DNA of 64,000 nt. Origin: Rhodospirillaceae bacterium (GTDB taxonomy: Bacteria > Pseudomonadota > Alphaproteobacteria > MPNO01 > UBA2964). This document shows, one piece after another, positions 38,703 through 44,908 of this stretch (position 1 is its first letter; every line of letters starts with the position of its first letter). The DNA is taken from assembly GCA_002720855.1 (NCBI GenBank), contig PBIN01000014.1, positions 581,619-645,618 of the forward strand. The letters run 5' to 3'. The position numbers were made by a program, and so were the translations under genes. The notes under the pieces were generated by a model. That model made no database searches, was not told the origin of the DNA, and was given only the letters and a program-made list of their open reading frames with translations.

Positions 38703-39629
38703 TTAGGCTGCTTTGCGGCGTGTCTTCGGTTTAATCAATCCCGCTCGCTTTAATACGCCATCAAGGCGTTTTTCCAATTCTTTGGATGCGGGCATCATTG
38801 GAAGACGATGTTCGTTTTTAGGCATAATGCCGAGTTTTTTCATCATGTATTTCATCGGCTGCGGATTGGTGTCGTAAAACACCGCCTGATTGATCTCGAA
38901 TAATTCATAGTGAATTTTCTGGGCCTGCTTCATTTTGCCCTCCCAAATGAGTTCGCACATTCGGGCGAGTTTTTTGGGCATCAGATTGCCAACAGCGTTC
39001 ATGAGGCCACACGCACCGACCGTCATCATCGGGTAGGACAAATCTTCGAGACCGACGAAAATCCGAAAATCTTTGCCAAAGTGATCGATACATTTGGAAA
39101 CAAAACCGAGATCGTCGACCGCATGCTTCATGCCGACGAAATGTGGACTCTCACGGCTGATCTGATCAAGGGCGTCGAGTGTCACGGACACCGCTGCTCG
39201 GCCAGGAATGTGGTAGATCATCCACGGTAAGCTGGTTTGTTTGGCGACCTCACCGTAATACGCCACAAGACCGCGCTGAGAAGGCCGAATGTAATAAGGC
39301 GTGACAATGAGCAATGCATCCGCACCGGCCTTGTCCGCATGAGCGGTAAGCGCTGCTGTCTCGGCAAGACTCTGTGATCCCGTCGCGGCGACGATAGGAA
39401 CCTTACCGGCGGCTGCCTCGATTGCGACATCAACAGTCCGGTTACGTTCTTCCACCGTCAGCGTGGATGGCTCCGAGGTTGTGCCGTTCACCAAAATACC
39501 GTGGGATCCATTTTTTACCTGAAATTCAACGAGCCCGGCGTAAGCGTCGTAATCAACCTCCCCTTTTTTGAAAGGCGTAATTAACGGCGGGATCGAACCC
39601 CTAAGGAACTTCCTCGGCAAGCGCATCAT
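38703..39629 (-). CDS. Dihydrodipicolinate synthase (DHDPS) superfamily aldolase/lyase
   Basis: A 308-residue (beta/alpha)8-barrel enzyme of the DapA/NAL superfamily. Visible are GSIPPLITPF, the substrate loop VNGTTSEPSTL (usually GTTGE, here Ser for Gly), the Tyr of VTPYY and of MIYHIPGR, and the Schiff-base Lys in VGMKHAVDD. The basic tail (KPKTRRKAA) is unusual. I start at ATG 39629, 4 nt after the cupin-gene stop; the open frame extends upstream into that gene. It ends a run of UbiD 3, MarR, double cupin and this aldolase. Superfamily members include hydratase-aldolases of aromatic breakdown, which would fit. It is unlikely to be the lysine-pathway enzyme given its context. Confidence 0.88.
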   Translation of the reverse strand: MMRLPRKFLRGSIPPLITPFKKGEVDYDAYAGLVEFQVKNGSHGILVNGTTSEPSTLTVEERNRTVDVAIEAAAGKVPIVAATGSQSLAETAALTAHADKAGADALLIVTPYYIRPSQRGLVAYYGEVAKQTSLPWMIYHIPGRAAVSVTLDALDQISRESPHFVGMKHAVDDLGFVSKCIDHFGKDFRIFVGLEDLSYPMMTVGACGLMNAVGNLMPKKLARMCELIWEGKMKQAQKIHYELFEINQAVFYDTNPQPMKYMMKKLGIMPKNEHRLPMMPASKELEKRLDGVLKRAGLIKPKTRRKAA

Positions 39630-39633
39630 TGGC

Positions 39634-40752
39634 TTAACTCGCGATCTTGCTGCGGTTCGTGTCAAATCCCATTTCAGCACCTAGAACGCTCCAGGGTTTT
39701 TTGAGATCCTCCTGCCACAGAAGCGACTCCATGACGATGTTTAGTGGTTGATCCTGGATGGTTAGTTCGTATATCGGCTCTGTCCCCGTGCTGGCGTGGT
39801 TGTGGACTCCCCAACCAGGCGCTGTGAGGAGAAGATCGCCGGACTGCCATTCGTAGACCTTGCCCTCGACAGTTGAACGACCTTCACCCTGGAATATATA
39901 GTTCATCGCCGCGGACACATGACGGTGCGGTTTATCGACAATTCCTGGCGGGCGGATAGTGATCGTTGCGAAGAAATTCGGTGTCGTGCCGTTGGTCCGG
40001 CCGGTCATCGGATTCCACAAGAGATACAATCTGCGGCCGACATAATCGGAGCCAAGCGCCGTAAGTTTGTCGAGTTCAGTCTTTACCTTCTTCCATGGCC
40101 AGTGAAGCGCATGTGATTCGACTGCCTCGGGTGCAATAAGAATTTCGTACGGCATAAGCCAGGCGCCATCATCGGTTAACTCGAATGTGCCATAAGGGCT
40201 TTTGCGCCGTGGATCGTCTTCAGCAATCGCGTCTTCCTTCTCTTCTTCAACGAGTTGTACCTCGGCTGCTGGATCCTCTTCGACAATATGAACATTCATT
40301 TTTTCGAGCAATGGCGCGTTGGTGTAGGTTAATCGAACCTGCACTTCATCGGTGTCATTGACGTGGATGTATGTTTGCATTGAGGGGAAGTTGAAAACGT
40401 CATACTGCTCAAAATCGATGCGTTTGCCACCAACAACGGAATGGCCACTACCCTGGATACAGAAATTCACCTGTGTCGAGTTGTGGCGGATGGGGCGGGT
40501 CTGTTCACCTGGATTGAGAACCTCGACGATGGGCCGTATCCCCGGGGCCAGTCCTAAACCCACGCCAAGCTTGTGGGAATCGGGATGGACGACCCAGCTT
40601 TGCCGGCGGCCATTATTTGGCGCTGGCATTTTGGAAAGGCGCTCTATTTCGGCATCAAAGTCCGCCTTTTTAACAATAGCGGGCTCCCAAAGTTCAGGGG
40701 CGGGTTCGGTTTTGCCCGATTTATCGATGAATATGCCTTTTTGCTCAGCCAT
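39634..40752 (-). CDS. Double-cupin dioxygenase, gentisate-1,2-dioxygenase-like
   Basis: A 372-residue bicupin protein of the gentisate / 1-hydroxy-2-naphthoate dioxygenase family. Cupin 1 (about residues 90-145) has PIRHNSTQVNFCIQGSGH and QTYIHVND, in which the usual metal-binding H-x-H is lost (R-H-N). Cupin 2 (about 270-330) retains KPHRHVSAAMNYIFQGEG and GVHNHAS, a full H-x-H...H set. Classic family members bind iron in cupin 1, so this looks like a shift of the active site. I start at ATG 40752 with GGAGG upstream; the longer frame has no ribosome site. It lies 4 nt before the aldolase start and 106 nt after marR. The likely role is ring cleavage of a hydroxy-aromatic acid or phenol. Confidence 0.85.
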   Translation of the reverse strand: MAEQKGIFIDKSGKTEPAPELWEPAIVKKADFDAEIERLSKMPAPNNGRRQSWVVHPDSHKLGVGLGLAPGIRPIVEVLNPGEQTRPIRHNSTQVNFCIQGSGHSVVGGKRIDFEQYDVFNFPSMQTYIHVNDTDEVQVRLTYTNAPLLEKMNVHIVEEDPAAEVQLVEEEKEDAIAEDDPRRKSPYGTFELTDDGAWLMPYEILIAPEAVESHALHWPWKKVKTELDKLTALGSDYVGRRLYLLWNPMTGRTNGTTPNFFATITIRPPGIVDKPHRHVSAAMNYIFQGEGRSTVEGKVYEWQSGDLLLTAPGWGVHNHASTGTEPIYELTIQDQPLNIVMESLLWQEDLKKPWSVLGAEMGFDTNRSKIAS

Positions 40753-40858
40753 GACTGTCCTCCAATGATTCTGCACCGCGGCCAAACAAAATCGGCAAAG
40801 CCACGGAAATCAGGGATATTAAATACTTTGATACCTTACTTATTCGCGATTTTAAAGA

Positions 40859-41335
40859 TCAACATTTGGTGTTTTCTTCGTCGCGATCGAGGTTTTGTTT
40901 CATTGCACGCATTAGACGTTTAAGCGTTTCAATCTCCTCAGTCGTAAGACCGCTCGTCGCGATATCATTGATATTGGTTGCCATTCGAAGGAGTTCGTTC
41001 TTTAGATTGCGGCCTTTTTGGGTAGGAAAAATATTTATCGTTCTCCGATCCCGCCGATTGCGCACACGCCTGACATGGCCATTTTTTTCCAGCAGACGGA
41101 GAACACTCGCGGTGGTTGGCTCGGTCGTGCCAACCCGTTTGGAAAGTTCCCTTTGGCTCAGCCCTTCTTCGATCCAAAGGGTACGCATAAAATAGTACTG
41201 ACCTAAGGTCATGCCGTACTTCGATAGATTGCGCCTCAATGCTTTGCCAACCGCGAGGTTGGTGTTGCGAACCAAATATCCGGCGCTTTCATTTGGATCG
41301 AGCCAATTTTCGTCTTCGGGGTTACGACTGGTCAC
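40859..41335 (-). CDS. MarR-family transcriptional regulator
   Basis: A 158-residue winged-helix regulator. The recognition helix is in LSQRELSKRVGTTEPTTASVLRLLEKNG (two parts, about residues 62-90), followed by the wing VRRVRNRRDRRTINIFPT. Members usually repress their own operon and release DNA on binding a phenolic ligand. The ATG at 41335 overlaps the TGA of UbiD 3 (ATGA), so it is co-translated with that gene, and it lies upstream of the cupin and aldolase genes. It is therefore probably the local regulator of this run. No operator was identified for certain. Confidence 0.93.
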   Translation of the reverse strand: MTSRNPEDENWLDPNESAGYLVRNTNLAVGKALRRNLSKYGMTLGQYYFMRTLWIEEGLSQRELSKRVGTTEPTTASVLRLLEKNGHVRRVRNRRDRRTINIFPTQKGRNLKNELLRMATNINDIATSGLTTEEIETLKRLMRAMKQNLDRDEENTKC

Positions 41336-42735
41336 GATAAAAAATCCTCAATGTCCACGGATGCGTAGTTCGTGGGCATAGCGCGGTCAAATCGTGTTCT
41401 GTCTTCGACGCGAGGACTCCAGGGCTTCGTTGCATCGATCGCCACCTTTGTTCCGATGCGATACATCGGGCTCATTCCCGGCACAATGTCAGAAACGTTA
41501 TCGAGTGACCAAATTCGGGTGTTGTCTACTTTAGATACGTCGTCGATAGCATTCACACGCGTTGTCAGTGACCAAAAGACCTGGTTGAGATTGGATGCAT
41601 CCATATCTTCATCGACTGCAATTGCGAGCTTTGGATGAAGGTAAGGGCTTGACAGTGCAGCCATCAGCGCCGTTTTGGCCTGTCCCGCAATTCGCGGTCG
41701 CAGCTTTATAATGACCGCCATCAATCCTGATACGCCGAGACAGCGAATGTCCAGCAAATCCAGACCACCTTCGACTTTCGCAAGGTGCTCATAAAGTGCC
41801 GCTTCAACACATGTTCCCGTAATCGATTGTGGATCGGTCATCGGCGCACCGGAATGCATGCCGTAAAAGATCGGGTCCTTACGGTGCGTGATCGCTTTGA
41901 CAACGAATATTTCTGTCGATCCCTCTTCAGCATAGCCACCAGTAACCTCACCGAACGGACCCTCTTCCGTCATGGCATCAGGCAAAATCTCGCCTTCGAT
42001 AATCATCTCGGCATCTGCCGGCACTTCGAGGTCGCATGTTTCGCATTTGACCAGTCTTACCGGGTCTTCGAGCAGGCCGCCCGCCAATGACAGTTCATCA
42101 ATTCCGTACCGTGTTGTGAATCCGGCGGCGTACAAAATGGCGGGATGGGCACCCACAACCATCGCAACCGGCATCGACTGTTTTCGTTCCTGGTATTTCT
42201 GATATGTCCGAAGAGCATGGCGCGGGCAAATGAGAAAGCCGCTGCGATCAGGGCCCAAAACCTGTTGCCGATGATACGACATGTTCCTTGTCCCGGATTC
42301 AGGGTCTTTGATCACCGCCATCCCGGCTGCAATATATGGTCCGGGGTCCTGTTCCGACGTCCACATCGCAGGAAGTTTGGTGAGATCAGCATCATCCCCC
42401 GTCAGGACGACTTCTTTTACCGGAGCATCTTTAGGTTGGACGATGACCGGTTCACGCGGCTCCTTGATTCTCTCCACGACAGTGGGAATAACGTCCTCTT
42501 CCGAAACCCCCAGGCCAATTGCCCATTTGCGACGATCAGTAATGACCTGGCTGGCCAGTCGCCACCCTGGAAAACCCTTTAGATTTGTAAATAGCGTGGA
42601 TTTGCCAAACTGGTCATATGTCTTCCACCCAATCGCCGAGACGTTTTGGTGTGGATCAGTCTCAGCATCAACGCGAACGAGTTCGCCTTGCTGGTCGAGG
42701 TTTTGGACATGCCCGCGAAAAGATTGATCGCGCAT
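41332..42735 (-). CDS. UbiD-family decarboxylase 3
   Basis: A 467-residue prenyl-FMN-dependent decarboxylase, clearly different from UbiD 1 and 2 (it lacks their GGRYIGTG and VTRDPEE strings) and shorter by about 25 residues. Catalytic landmarks are GPYIAAGMAVIKDPESG, the Arg region NMSYHRQQVLG, LEVPADAEMIIEGEI and TEEGPFGEVTGGY with the two Glu. The ATG at 42735 has GGGAGG about eleven bases upstream. It leads the UbiD-MarR-cupin-aldolase run and is divergent from the hydratase pair (169-nt gap). It might decarboxylate an aromatic acid whose product the cupin enzyme then opens. Confidence 0.92.
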   Translation of the reverse strand: MRDQSFRGHVQNLDQQGELVRVDAETDPHQNVSAIGWKTYDQFGKSTLFTNLKGFPGWRLASQVITDRRKWAIGLGVSEEDVIPTVVERIKEPREPVIVQPKDAPVKEVVLTGDDADLTKLPAMWTSEQDPGPYIAAGMAVIKDPESGTRNMSYHRQQVLGPDRSGFLICPRHALRTYQKYQERKQSMPVAMVVGAHPAILYAAGFTTRYGIDELSLAGGLLEDPVRLVKCETCDLEVPADAEMIIEGEILPDAMTEEGPFGEVTGGYAEEGSTEIFVVKAITHRKDPIFYGMHSGAPMTDPQSITGTCVEAALYEHLAKVEGGLDLLDIRCLGVSGLMAVIIKLRPRIAGQAKTALMAALSSPYLHPKLAIAVDEDMDASNLNQVFWSLTTRVNAIDDVSKVDNTRIWSLDNVSDIVPGMSPMYRIGTKVAIDATKPWSPRVEDRTRFDRAMPTNYASVDIEDFLS

Positions 42736-42904: not shown

Positions 42905-43216
42905 ATGCAAAGACCTCATGACATGGGCGGTATGGATGCAGGCAAAATGGAAATTGCAGAGCATCCGGTTGAACTTTGGCAAAAAACAACCAATGCAATG
43001 CGACAAGTTCTTGGTGACGAGAGAAGGCGGCTCATTCGAGCAGATGAGCTCCGCCGGGCAATCGAAGACTTGCCACAAGATCAATATGAGGCCTTGCCGT
43101 ATTTTGATAAATGGATCAGGGCCGTGAGAGCGATCCTGGTTGAGAAGGGCGTTCTCACACACGAAGAAATCGATGCGCGCATTGAAGAGCTGCGCGCACA
43201 GCGCGCAGAGGCATAG
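42905..43216 (+). CDS. Nitrile hydratase beta N-terminal-like / thiocyanate hydrolase small subunit
   Basis: A 103-residue protein that matches only the N-terminal helical half of nitrile hydratase beta: RPHDMGGMDAGK at the start (the DMGGM signature), then a helical arm, YFDKWIRAVRAILVEKGVLTHEEIDARI. The normal beta C-terminal beta-roll (about 100 residues) is absent here and nowhere else in the window. Thiocyanate hydrolase has the same split of beta into two proteins, and cobalt nitrile hydratase activators also resemble this half. The DMGGM signature favours a structural subunit. It ends 9 nt before the alpha-subunit gene. Confidence 0.75.
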   Translation: MQRPHDMGGMDAGKMEIAEHPVELWQKTTNAMRQVLGDERRRLIRADELRRAIEDLPQDQYEALPYFDKWIRAVRAILVEKGVLTHEEIDARIEELRAQRAEA

Positions 43217-43225
43217 GAGTTAACG

Positions 43226-43876
43226 ATGGCAGAAGAACGCGGTTCTGGACATCACGATCATGATCATGATCATGATCAAACCTTTCAGCCCGATATTGAA
43301 GACAGTTCGCCGGGCGAAGGGGAGTTAATGGCGGAGGCTATTCGCAGTCTTCTTATCGAGAAGGAGGTGCTCACAGCAGAAGAGGTTAGAGCCGCTGTTG
43401 AGCAGATCGATAGTGTTGAAGCCTCGTTGGGCGGGCGTATCGTTGCAAGGGCGTGGTGCGATTCCGATTTCAAGGAACGCTTGCTCGAAAATGGTACGGA
43501 AGCCGTTCGCGAGTTTGGCGCAGATATGGGTGAAGCTGCGCTTATTGCCGTAGAGAACACGGAAGCCCGTCACAACGTAATTGTTTGTACCCTCTGTTCC
43601 TGCTATCCGCGCCAGGTACTTGGTTTACCGCCTGATTGGTATAAGAGCCGGGCCTATCGATCGCGCGTCGTCATCGAGCCGCGTGCTGTTCTGGAGGAAT
43701 TTGGTACTAAGATACCGGATGATGTTGGTGTTAGCGTCCACGATTCTACCGCGGATATCCGGTACATCGTTATACCGATGAGACCCGCGGGCACCGAAGA
43801 TATGAATGAAGATGAATTAGCGGCGCTTGTAACGCGTGATGCGCTGGTCGGCGTAACTTTGCCAAAAGCAGGTTAG
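43226..43876 (+). CDS. Nitrile hydratase alpha / thiocyanate hydrolase gamma-like subunit
   Basis: A 216-residue catalytic subunit. The metal site is VCTLCSCYPR (about residues 114-123); the C-T-L-C-S-C form is the cobalt type, in which two Cys are oxidised. Family landmarks also include LPPDWYKSRAYRSRVV, DDVGVSVHDSTADIRYIVIP and VTRDALVGV. The N-terminus has a His-Asp run, HHDHDHDHDQ, as in thiocyanate hydrolase gamma, perhaps for metal capture. A TAGGAG site precedes ATG 43226. Substrate could be a nitrile (to amide) or thiocyanate (to carbonyl sulfide and ammonia). The missing beta C-terminal module leaves the active site incomplete unless it is encoded elsewhere. Confidence 0.88.
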   Translation: MAEERGSGHHDHDHDHDQTFQPDIEDSSPGEGELMAEAIRSLLIEKEVLTAEEVRAAVEQIDSVEASLGGRIVARAWCDSDFKERLLENGTEAVREFGADMGEAALIAVENTEARHNVIVCTLCSCYPRQVLGLPPDWYKSRAYRSRVVIEPRAVLEEFGTKIPDDVGVSVHDSTADIRYIVIPMRPAGTEDMNEDELAALVTRDALVGVTLPKAG

Positions 43877-43885
43877 GAAGCACAC

Positions 43886-44908
43886 TTGGTTCAATTTCGA
43901 CGACCGACAATACAATCGGCAATACCGGTCTTCATTGCGTTTGTGGTACTTGTATTTTTGACAGGTATTGCATCGGCGCAGACGTCCGATGAAGATCAGA
44001 TCATAACGCTTCAACTTGAAAACGATTATTTCGGAAATACCGATCAACATTTCACGAATGGGTTTCGCGCCGCCTGGATGCCTTCAGCGAGGTCTGTACC
44101 CCAGTGGGTGATTGACGGGGCGTCTTTTTTTCCGCTCTTTGACCCTGCAGGGAAAAAGCGCGTCGTGTTTTCGCTCGGTCAAAGTATATTCACGCCAGAT
44201 GACCTCTCGGCGACAAATTTATTACGCGATGAACGGCCCTATGCGGGTTGGCTGTATGGCGGTGTCGGCCTCGTGTCGGTCTCAGAAGAGAGGTTGGACA
44301 ATATTGAATTAAATTTGGGTGTAATTGGCCCGGCGTCGCTTGCTGAGGACGTTCAGAAAACATGGCACGAATGGTTTGATTTCCAGAGGCCAAACGGATG
44401 GGACAACCAGCTAAAAAACGAACCCGGTTTTCTTCTCAATTATTAGCGCAAATGGCGCATGCGAACGCCGCGAAAGATTGGGGGGCTCGACGCAGATTTC
44501 ACGCCGCATGCTGGCGTTAGTCTGGGTAATGTTTTAACGCAGGCCTCGGTTGGTTTTACGGTTCGTGTCGGTGGAAATTTGCGTAATCACGACGATTATG
44601 GTCCGCCTCGTATTAGACCCAGCCTGCCGGGCTCAGATTATTTCGTTCGCAGCGACGGTTTGAGCTGGTACCTGTTTTTCGGCGCCGACGGTAGAGGTGT
44701 GCTCCATAATATATTCCTTGATGGCAACACGTTCAGTAGCAGTCACAGCGTCAGCAAAAAGCCGTTTGTTGGCGACATTCAGGGCGGGGTTGCCGTCATC
44801 TGGGGCCGTACACGGCTTGCCTACACCCACATTTTCCGAACCAAAGAGTTTGATTCCCAAGACGATACTGATCAATTCGGTTCCGTAAGCCTTTCATTTA
44901 TTTTCTAG
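43886..44908 (+). pseudogene. LpxR-like lipid A deacylase gene interrupted by in-frame TAG
   Basis: One frame from TTG 43886 (ribosome site AGGAAG at 43875-43880) to TAG 44906-44908, broken by a single TAG at 44444-44446. The product would be a 340-residue outer-membrane beta-barrel of the LpxR/DUF2219 family, with a signal peptide ending at ASA. It then has LQLENDYFGNTDQHFTNGFR, the family's first strand, and after the stop DFTPHAGVSLGNVLTQASVG and YGPPRIRPSLPGSDYF. The stop falls within NY-x-RKWR, where relatives carry Glu, so GAG-to-TAG is the simplest change. LpxR removes the 3'-acyl chains of lipid A. With the stop, only a truncated protein is made unless the codon is read through. Confidence 0.8.

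Follow-up and report, generated by a model that had tools for sequence, protein, structure and literature searches.

A nitrile hydratase-type betaN-alpha gene pair without a betaC gene in an alphaproteobacterial genome

Two adjoining genes of the nitrile hydratase type lie on the plus strand of the window, by which we mean the whole 64,000-nt stretch of DNA that was analysed (C14:581619-645618, from a 3.6-Mb assembly of 15 contigs that is 98.21% complete). The first gene (42905..43216, + strand) is AnhD-like and encodes a 103-aa protein equal to the N-terminal half of nitrile hydratase beta (betaN), as judged from PF21006, phmmer matches, and conserved columns. The second gene (43226..43876, + strand) is AnhA-like and encodes a 216-aa alpha subunit with the cobalt-type motif VCTLCSCYPR, as judged from PF02979 and PDB matches. 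They are separated by a 9-nt spacer (43217..43225, + strand) with a GGAG ribosome-binding-like sequence ahead of the alpha start; gene order comparison places the gene for the C-terminal beta module (betaC) at the position of this spacer in relatives ordered betaN-betaC-alpha. The divergent neighbour is a UbiD-family decarboxylase gene (41332..42735, - strand, assigned by Pfam and NCBIfam), followed by a block shared by some relatives that encodes a DapA-like aldolase/synthase, a double-cupin protein, and a MarR regulator (38703..41335, - strand). Directly 3' of the alpha gene, an LpxR-like outer membrane gene (43886-44908), the second half of which is matched by PF09982, is broken by an in-frame stop; an uninterrupted copy is present in the sister genome G007 (L167:10652-11671).

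Pfam NHase_beta_N (PF21006) covered residues 1-99 of the small protein (E 1e-18, 67.9 bits, cut-off 21.5), and NHase_alpha (PF02979) covered residues 34-211 of the larger one (E 3.5e-77, 258.4 bits, cut-off 27.2), which had one additional weak Pfam match under its cut-off. The NCBIfam model nitrile_beta was aligned to the small protein over the N-terminal 101 of 226 model positions only (60.5 bits); of the N- and C-terminal modules that make up the complete beta of a cobalt-type nitrile hydratase, NHase_beta_N alone was matched. The alpha carries the C-T/S-L-C-S-C metal motif of cobalt-type alphas, and its best PDB matches were Co-type nitrile hydratase alphas (top E 8e-62). For the small protein, the best PDB match obtained with phmmer was the thiocyanate hydrolase beta 2dd4_B (E 5e-8), which we take to be a betaN protein. 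Against TIGR01323, the window alpha scored 243.8 bits, narrowly under the cut-off of 249.85, and the alpha of the second set in this genome, on contig C3, was under it too (245.0). The open reading frames, Pfam, and the metal motif agree with the first-pass annotation of a 103-residue beta N-terminal half 9 nt ahead of a full cobalt-type alpha. The His-Asp head to which that annotation drew attention is present at residues 9-17 of the alpha and is not peculiar to the pair, being found also in the C3 alpha and in many related alphas (74/125 carry HDH or HEH among the first 40 matched-domain residues). The betaN gene, its TAG stop, the spacer, and the alpha gene share one frame. A read-through fusion was ruled out: TAG is an ordinary stop here, ending 19 of the 56 long non-overlapping ORFs of the window, and the spacer of the same pair in a second genome, G009, is 4 nt, so that the frame between the two genes is not conserved. 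Also ruled out was the identification of betaN as an ordinary nitrile hydratase activator, since it scored 16.8 bits against TIGR03889 (cut-off 46); this was the sole match in the whole genome, in which no activator gene was found over that cut-off.

A search of the whole genome with PF02211 found one betaC (C3:83719-83985), and the genome holds two betaN genes and two alphas, one of each on C14 and on C3. The C3 genes form one betaN-betaC-alpha set with short overlaps, each gene being confirmed by Pfam and NCBIfam; the window alpha and the C3 alpha are 60% identical. The earlier observation that the window holds no beta C-terminal module was borne out by this search, the sole match lying on another contig. 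A betaC close by and overlooked was rejected on the same ground, the betaC profile being silent in 4 kb around the pair, and a second betaC may lie in the unassembled part of the genome. Because the only betaC found sits in a complete paralogous set, it is no lone partner gene of the window pair. As judged from sequence, the pair is a second, paralogous member of the split-beta family (AnhD-AnhE-AnhA type), one that lacks betaC. The first-pass annotation had proposed a reduced enzyme, or one with its third subunit elsewhere, and a whole-genome search for a stand-alone betaC: the unit is reduced and a betaC does exist elsewhere in the genome, within a complete set rather than alone, and the idea of a split thiocyanate hydrolase minus one gene did not hold. 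A large gene, presumably molybdenum hydroxylase-like, follows the complete C3 set (L006:5651-7984), and a protein end resembling it is encoded on the short contig of one of the betaN-alpha fusions described below (L165:2-676).

In nitrile hydratases the active site is formed with the help of both beta halves, each giving one arginine. Arg50, Arg51, Glu54, and Tyr66 are kept in the window betaN and are 92-100% conserved across 92 other betaN sequences. Arg50 was aligned with the beta Arg52 position of PDB entries of the Pseudonocardia enzyme (9d65 and 9d6j, BR52 mutants), with part of that numbering assumed by us. The second arginine, mutated in the BR157 entries 9d6k and 9d6m, presumably lies in the betaC half and hence is absent from the pair. 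In the alpha, Arg129 of the CYPR motif was aligned without gaps with position 136 of thiocyanate hydrolase gamma (PDB entry 3vyg is 'mutant R136W') and with the site of the W116R nitrile hydratase mutant in 3vyh. The residue at this position is Arg in 120 of the 125 alphas of our tree, the window included, and Lys in 4 more, so Arg129 marks the whole group and is not specific to thiocyanate hydrolase; a Streptomyces alpha with the AnhDEA gene order, AnhDEA being a proven nitrile hydratase, also has Arg there (L094, likened by order alone). The read-through chain betaN-Q-ELT-alpha was modelled using AlphaFold (pLDDT 88.3, pTM 0.77). In VIA-align comparisons, the alpha part of the model matched chains of nitrile hydratase alpha and of thiocyanate hydrolase gamma at Z 24-26, and its betaN part matched the N-terminal region of a beta chain (Z 8.8, 72 residues); Foldseek also placed the parts on nitrile hydratase alpha and the beta N-terminus. 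All 40 betaN alignment rows were split between betaN and the first helices of alpha, and the packing of the two parts in the model is unusable as evidence.

A match to the pair was found in 25 of 27 genomes of the order. Among the examined loci of the order, which leave out seven weaker alpha matches, the betaC-less arrangement is confined to the window genome (G000) and G009, a member of a different genus of the same family in which the same pair is intact in the same neighbourhood. In G017 the alpha is truncated by the start of its contig and no betaC was found, so this locus was left unassigned. The other genomes have betaN-betaC-alpha, betaN-betaN-betaC-alpha, or alpha-betaN-betaC in one frame order. 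Several of the betaN-betaC-alpha and betaN-betaN-betaC-alpha sets adjoin UbiD, cupin, MarR, and DapA-like genes just as the pair does, which points to a longer ancestral unit from which betaC was removed. The two betaN genes of four-gene relatives differ from each other (betaN1-betaN2-betaC-alpha; L027, L029, L036, L038, L039, L040, and L120); the window betaN is closer in kind to betaN2, and betaN1 is possibly a partner dedicated to assembly. A further split-beta gene order, betaC-alpha-betaN, was seen in six loci of diverse proteobacteria (L115, L130, L131, L141, L151, and L159).

Our own HMMs of the three modules were scanned over all gathered loci (180 distinct alphas, 4 of them cut by contig ends). 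A betaC was present within 3.2 kb at 169/176 assessable alpha loci and absent at 7/176, in a pool that, having been assembled from proteins similar to these, is no random sample. A few alpha matches with internal stops whose alignment begins in the betaN portion of the query (G179, G486, and G363) were left out of this classification; at another such match, in G750, betaC is present (L265). Among the best 80 of 589 GTDB loci encoding a relative, 77 have betaC, the other 3 are truncated by the start of the contig, and no betaC-less locus was seen. Each of the five genomes with a betaC-less unit has exactly one betaC match, beside betaN and alpha (in G051 this alpha is cut by the contig end). 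Within the family, a C3-type betaN match was found in 12 of 13 genomes, and since complete sets are thus nearly universal, the co-occurrence of the pair with a complete set is weak evidence and proves little. A canonical nitrile hydratase with full-length beta, recognized by ORF length, is present in 7 of the 13 and in neither genome with the pair; mutual exclusion of the two was considered and is not significant (p about 0.19 by hand).

The remaining betaC-less units are five single genes, each a betaN-His/Asp-alpha fusion, found among the matches listed in three genomes, all from a single genus in another family (L041:3813-4769, L165:2158-3159, L175, L176, and L206; two each in G051 and G182 and one in G279). 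They surfaced among the matches listed when 385 genomes of the class were sampled, and no further fusion was found among the matches listed from 398 genomes of the phylum. Two fusions were scanned with Pfam, and both contained NHase_beta_N and NHase_alpha with no NHase_beta_C. In the alpha tree (125 rows, four of the five fusions included, bootstrap not fully settled), the window and G009 alphas form a clade (100/99) within a 23-row clade (99/95) that lacks fusions and contains, around the window alpha, alphas of three- and four-gene sets, and the fusions form a clade of their own (100/98). Since the fusions fall outside the window/G009 clade, two separate losses of betaC are the simplest reading of the tree. 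The existence of the fused form in more distant bacteria hints that betaC may be supplied from another set or not be needed.

Between G000 and G009, the pair alpha is 75.3% and the pair betaN 60.2% identical, compared with 66.5% for alpha, 58.0% for betaN, and 76.6% for betaC of the C3-type set and 58.7-85.7% for seven neighbours of the pair. The values of pN and pS were 0.186 and 0.782 for alpha and 0.271 and 0.778 for betaN; pS is saturated in both, and the ratios are only indicative. By these comparisons, the pair is constrained about as much as the complete enzyme. The absence of betaC is, judging by the intact pair in the same neighbourhood of a second genus, old and tolerated, with clean junctions in both genera. 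In sister species of the same genus, the pair is lost to varying extents. G001 has a betaN stub of codons 1-32 that carries a stop, the stub in G007 spans codons 1-18, and in G002, G006, and G008, where UbiD and AGXT are both kept, the pair has left no detectable trace between these two genes. In G003 none was found within 1.2 kb upstream of UbiD, and G004 and G005 have no UbiD match. The pair is gone from sister species that retain the C3 set and is dispensable there; other lineages have a use for it. A sequence signature of betaC loss was sought in the alpha and no signal was found: of 74 columns with >=85% conservation across the remaining 119 alphas, the window and G009 alphas both deviate at 3 (E41S, A70G, and R170S), against 1-9 in 11 other related alpha pairs picked by hand, the two fusion pairs lying at the top end of that range with 8 each. 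Changed columns are not in excess, and there is thus no sign of decay in the betaC-facing surface of alpha; a stand-alone complex or slow change would give the same picture.

The nitrile hydratase of Streptomyces canus CGMCC 13662 consists of AnhD (betaN), AnhE (betaC), and AnhA (alpha), with no activator according to the available text of its description (PMC7329996). The window genome is like this system in its separate betaN gene adjoining a cobalt-type alpha and in the lack of a detected activator gene, and the order D-E-A is that of most three-gene relatives; unlike AnhDEA, to which it is likened by gene content and description, the window unit has no AnhE, and no separate betaC is present in the G009 unit either. 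The same text gives purified AnhDA as AnhD2A, stable and with 0.67 Co per protein, with an activity on acetamiprid of 0.21% (holo) or 1.97% (reactivated) of the full enzyme, and able to bring apo-AnhDEA to 54% of holo activity, which was read as alpha exchange; AnhA alone held 0.57 Co per protein and had no activity, and self-subunit swapping is described as subunit-specific (PMC7329996). The pair has the composition of AnhD2A, which is a laboratory subcomplex there and a natural gene unit here. It is also like the alpha(activator)2 mediator complexes NhlAE and alpha-P14K2 in combining an alpha with a small betaN-like partner, and unlike them in that the partner fits the structural beta model and not the activator model. 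The fused nitrile hydratase of Monosiga brevicollis joins beta to alpha via a His-rich stretch, as the five fusions do, but both of its subunits are described as complete in the available text (PMC2603476), whereas the two scanned bacterial fusions lack betaC. ToyJKL, of the toyocamycin pathway, has three small subunits with the strongest contact between alpha and beta in the part of its description seen (PMC8574189), and all three are present, unlike in the pair. No natural betaC-less nitrile hydratase was found in a literature search that reached few subscription journals.

About 3-9 kb from the pair lie genes for a DmsC-type anchor, a 4Fe-4S protein, a molybdopterin oxidoreductase ('SoeA-like' is our label; Pfam gives Molybdopterin oxidoreductase), and a persulfide-dioxygenase-like metallo-hydrolase. 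On the strength of such neighbours, the first-pass annotation considered thiocyanate a plausible substrate. In 19 related loci on contigs of unequal length, the UbiD orthologue adjoins nitrile-hydratase-type genes in 9. The molybdopterin oxidoreductase, which belongs to a sulfite-oxidation-like block, is near such genes in 2 of the 19, those of G009 and G015, and 3 further loci show a weaker anchor-subunit match. A gene at 46198-46944 matches CnbZ, 2-amino-5-chloromuconate deaminase (NF049982, 384.5 bits, cut-off 220), and adjoins an aminotransferase gene, which hints at aromatic amine breakdown nearby. The neighbourhood case for thiocyanate is weak; a pathway for aromatic or unsaturated acids seems likelier, and as a guess the substrate would be a nitrile-type compound of the neighbouring UbiD/cupin pathway.

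An ordinary three-subunit thiocyanate hydrolase with its third subunit encoded elsewhere is a very improbable explanation of the pair. The beta of thiocyanate hydrolase is divided between two proteins, the beta of the Thiobacillus thioparus enzyme (2dd4) is the top PDB match of the small protein, the sulfur-type genes lie near, and the window alpha shares the Arg at gamma 136 that is mutated in 3vyg. That residue is Arg or Lys in nearly every alpha of the tree, however, and Leu49 stands where beta has Arg90, the role of which in thiocyanate hydrolase we assume. Moreover, unlike 2dd4, the locus has no third subunit, the alpha scored 198.3 bits against the gamma model TIGR03887 (cut-off 291.45), lower than against the nitrile model, and the only betaC found belongs to another complete set; these points and the two loci of 19 with the oxidoreductase count against the earlier suggestion of thiocyanate. 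A relic, left by the loss of betaC from a complete unit and now decaying, would account for the stubs in G001 and G007, for the missing traces in G002, G006, G008, and the 1.2 kb of G003, and perhaps for the in-frame stop in the downstream LpxR-like gene, but we consider it decidedly unlikely, as G000 and G009 have intact reading frames for both proteins and retain the conserved motifs, the pair alpha is better conserved than the C3 alpha between these genomes, and amino-acid changes are far below silent changes. It is also unlikely that the pair is a maturation donor, in which betaN2-alpha loads cobalt and the alpha is swapped into the C3 enzyme of an activator-less genome. Its composition is that of AnhD2A and of alpha plus activator complexes (available text of PMC7329996 and PMC3511329), and no activator model is over its cut-off in the genome; sister species without the pair nevertheless retain the C3 set, a fused betaN-alpha is unable to release alpha alone, the pair alpha and the C3 alpha are different proteins, and cobalt enters AnhA alone too (0.57), so that a special loader is unneeded (PMC7329996).

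The main rival to the sharing of betaC, a possible but doubtful one, is a stand-alone reduced enzyme, in which the betaN-alpha complex is itself the hydratase, with the betaC side open or otherwise covered and perhaps with a bulky or unusual substrate. On this rival explanation, nitrile hydratases would have a natural minimal form, betaN-alpha, that evolved two or more times, as a split pair here and as a betaN-His/Asp-alpha fusion in another family of the class, and that is competent alone on some substrate. It draws on the two separate betaC-less lineages with alpha and betaN intact and on the five fusion genes (three genomes of one genus, among the matches listed). Activity of the toyocamycin nitrile hydratase alpha on its own is also reported, by Nelp 2014 as cited in PMC7329996. 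Against it stand the missing second active-site arginine of betaC and the activity of AnhD2A, only 0.21-1.97% of that of the full enzyme, with none for alpha alone (available text of PMC7329996). The reading that we prefer, and hold tentatively, is that the pair is a selectively maintained betaC-less split-beta unit completed by the C3 betaC into a hybrid hydratase. By analogy with AnhD2A, betaN and alpha would form a cobalt-loaded complex with no activator gene needed; the alpha cysteines would bind the metal, and betaN would give the first of two second-sphere arginines (Arg50). Most likely, and with moderate weight, this complex would act as a satellite of the C3 enzyme and take up betaC made there, giving a hybrid hydratase with the pair's own alpha and substrate pocket. 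This reading draws on the constraint on the pair, on the natural fusions, in which betaN and alpha stand at 1:1 with no betaC, and on the properties of AnhD2A. Sharing of the C3 betaC is suggested by the single betaC in each of the five genomes, by the near inactivity of AnhD2A, and by the lack of excess alpha changes. Against it weigh the near universality of complete sets in the family, the loss of the pair from sister species with the C3 set, and the subunit specificity described for self-subunit swapping (PMC7329996); the C3 betaC would, moreover, have to bind an alpha 60% identical to its own partner.

Two separate lineages in which betaC is missing while betaN and alpha stay constrained make the role of betaC testable, be it in catalysis, in maturation, or in sharing between paralogous enzymes. 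With betaN and alpha joined in one gene, the fusions would also offer a convenient minimal scaffold in a family of enzymes that industry uses widely.
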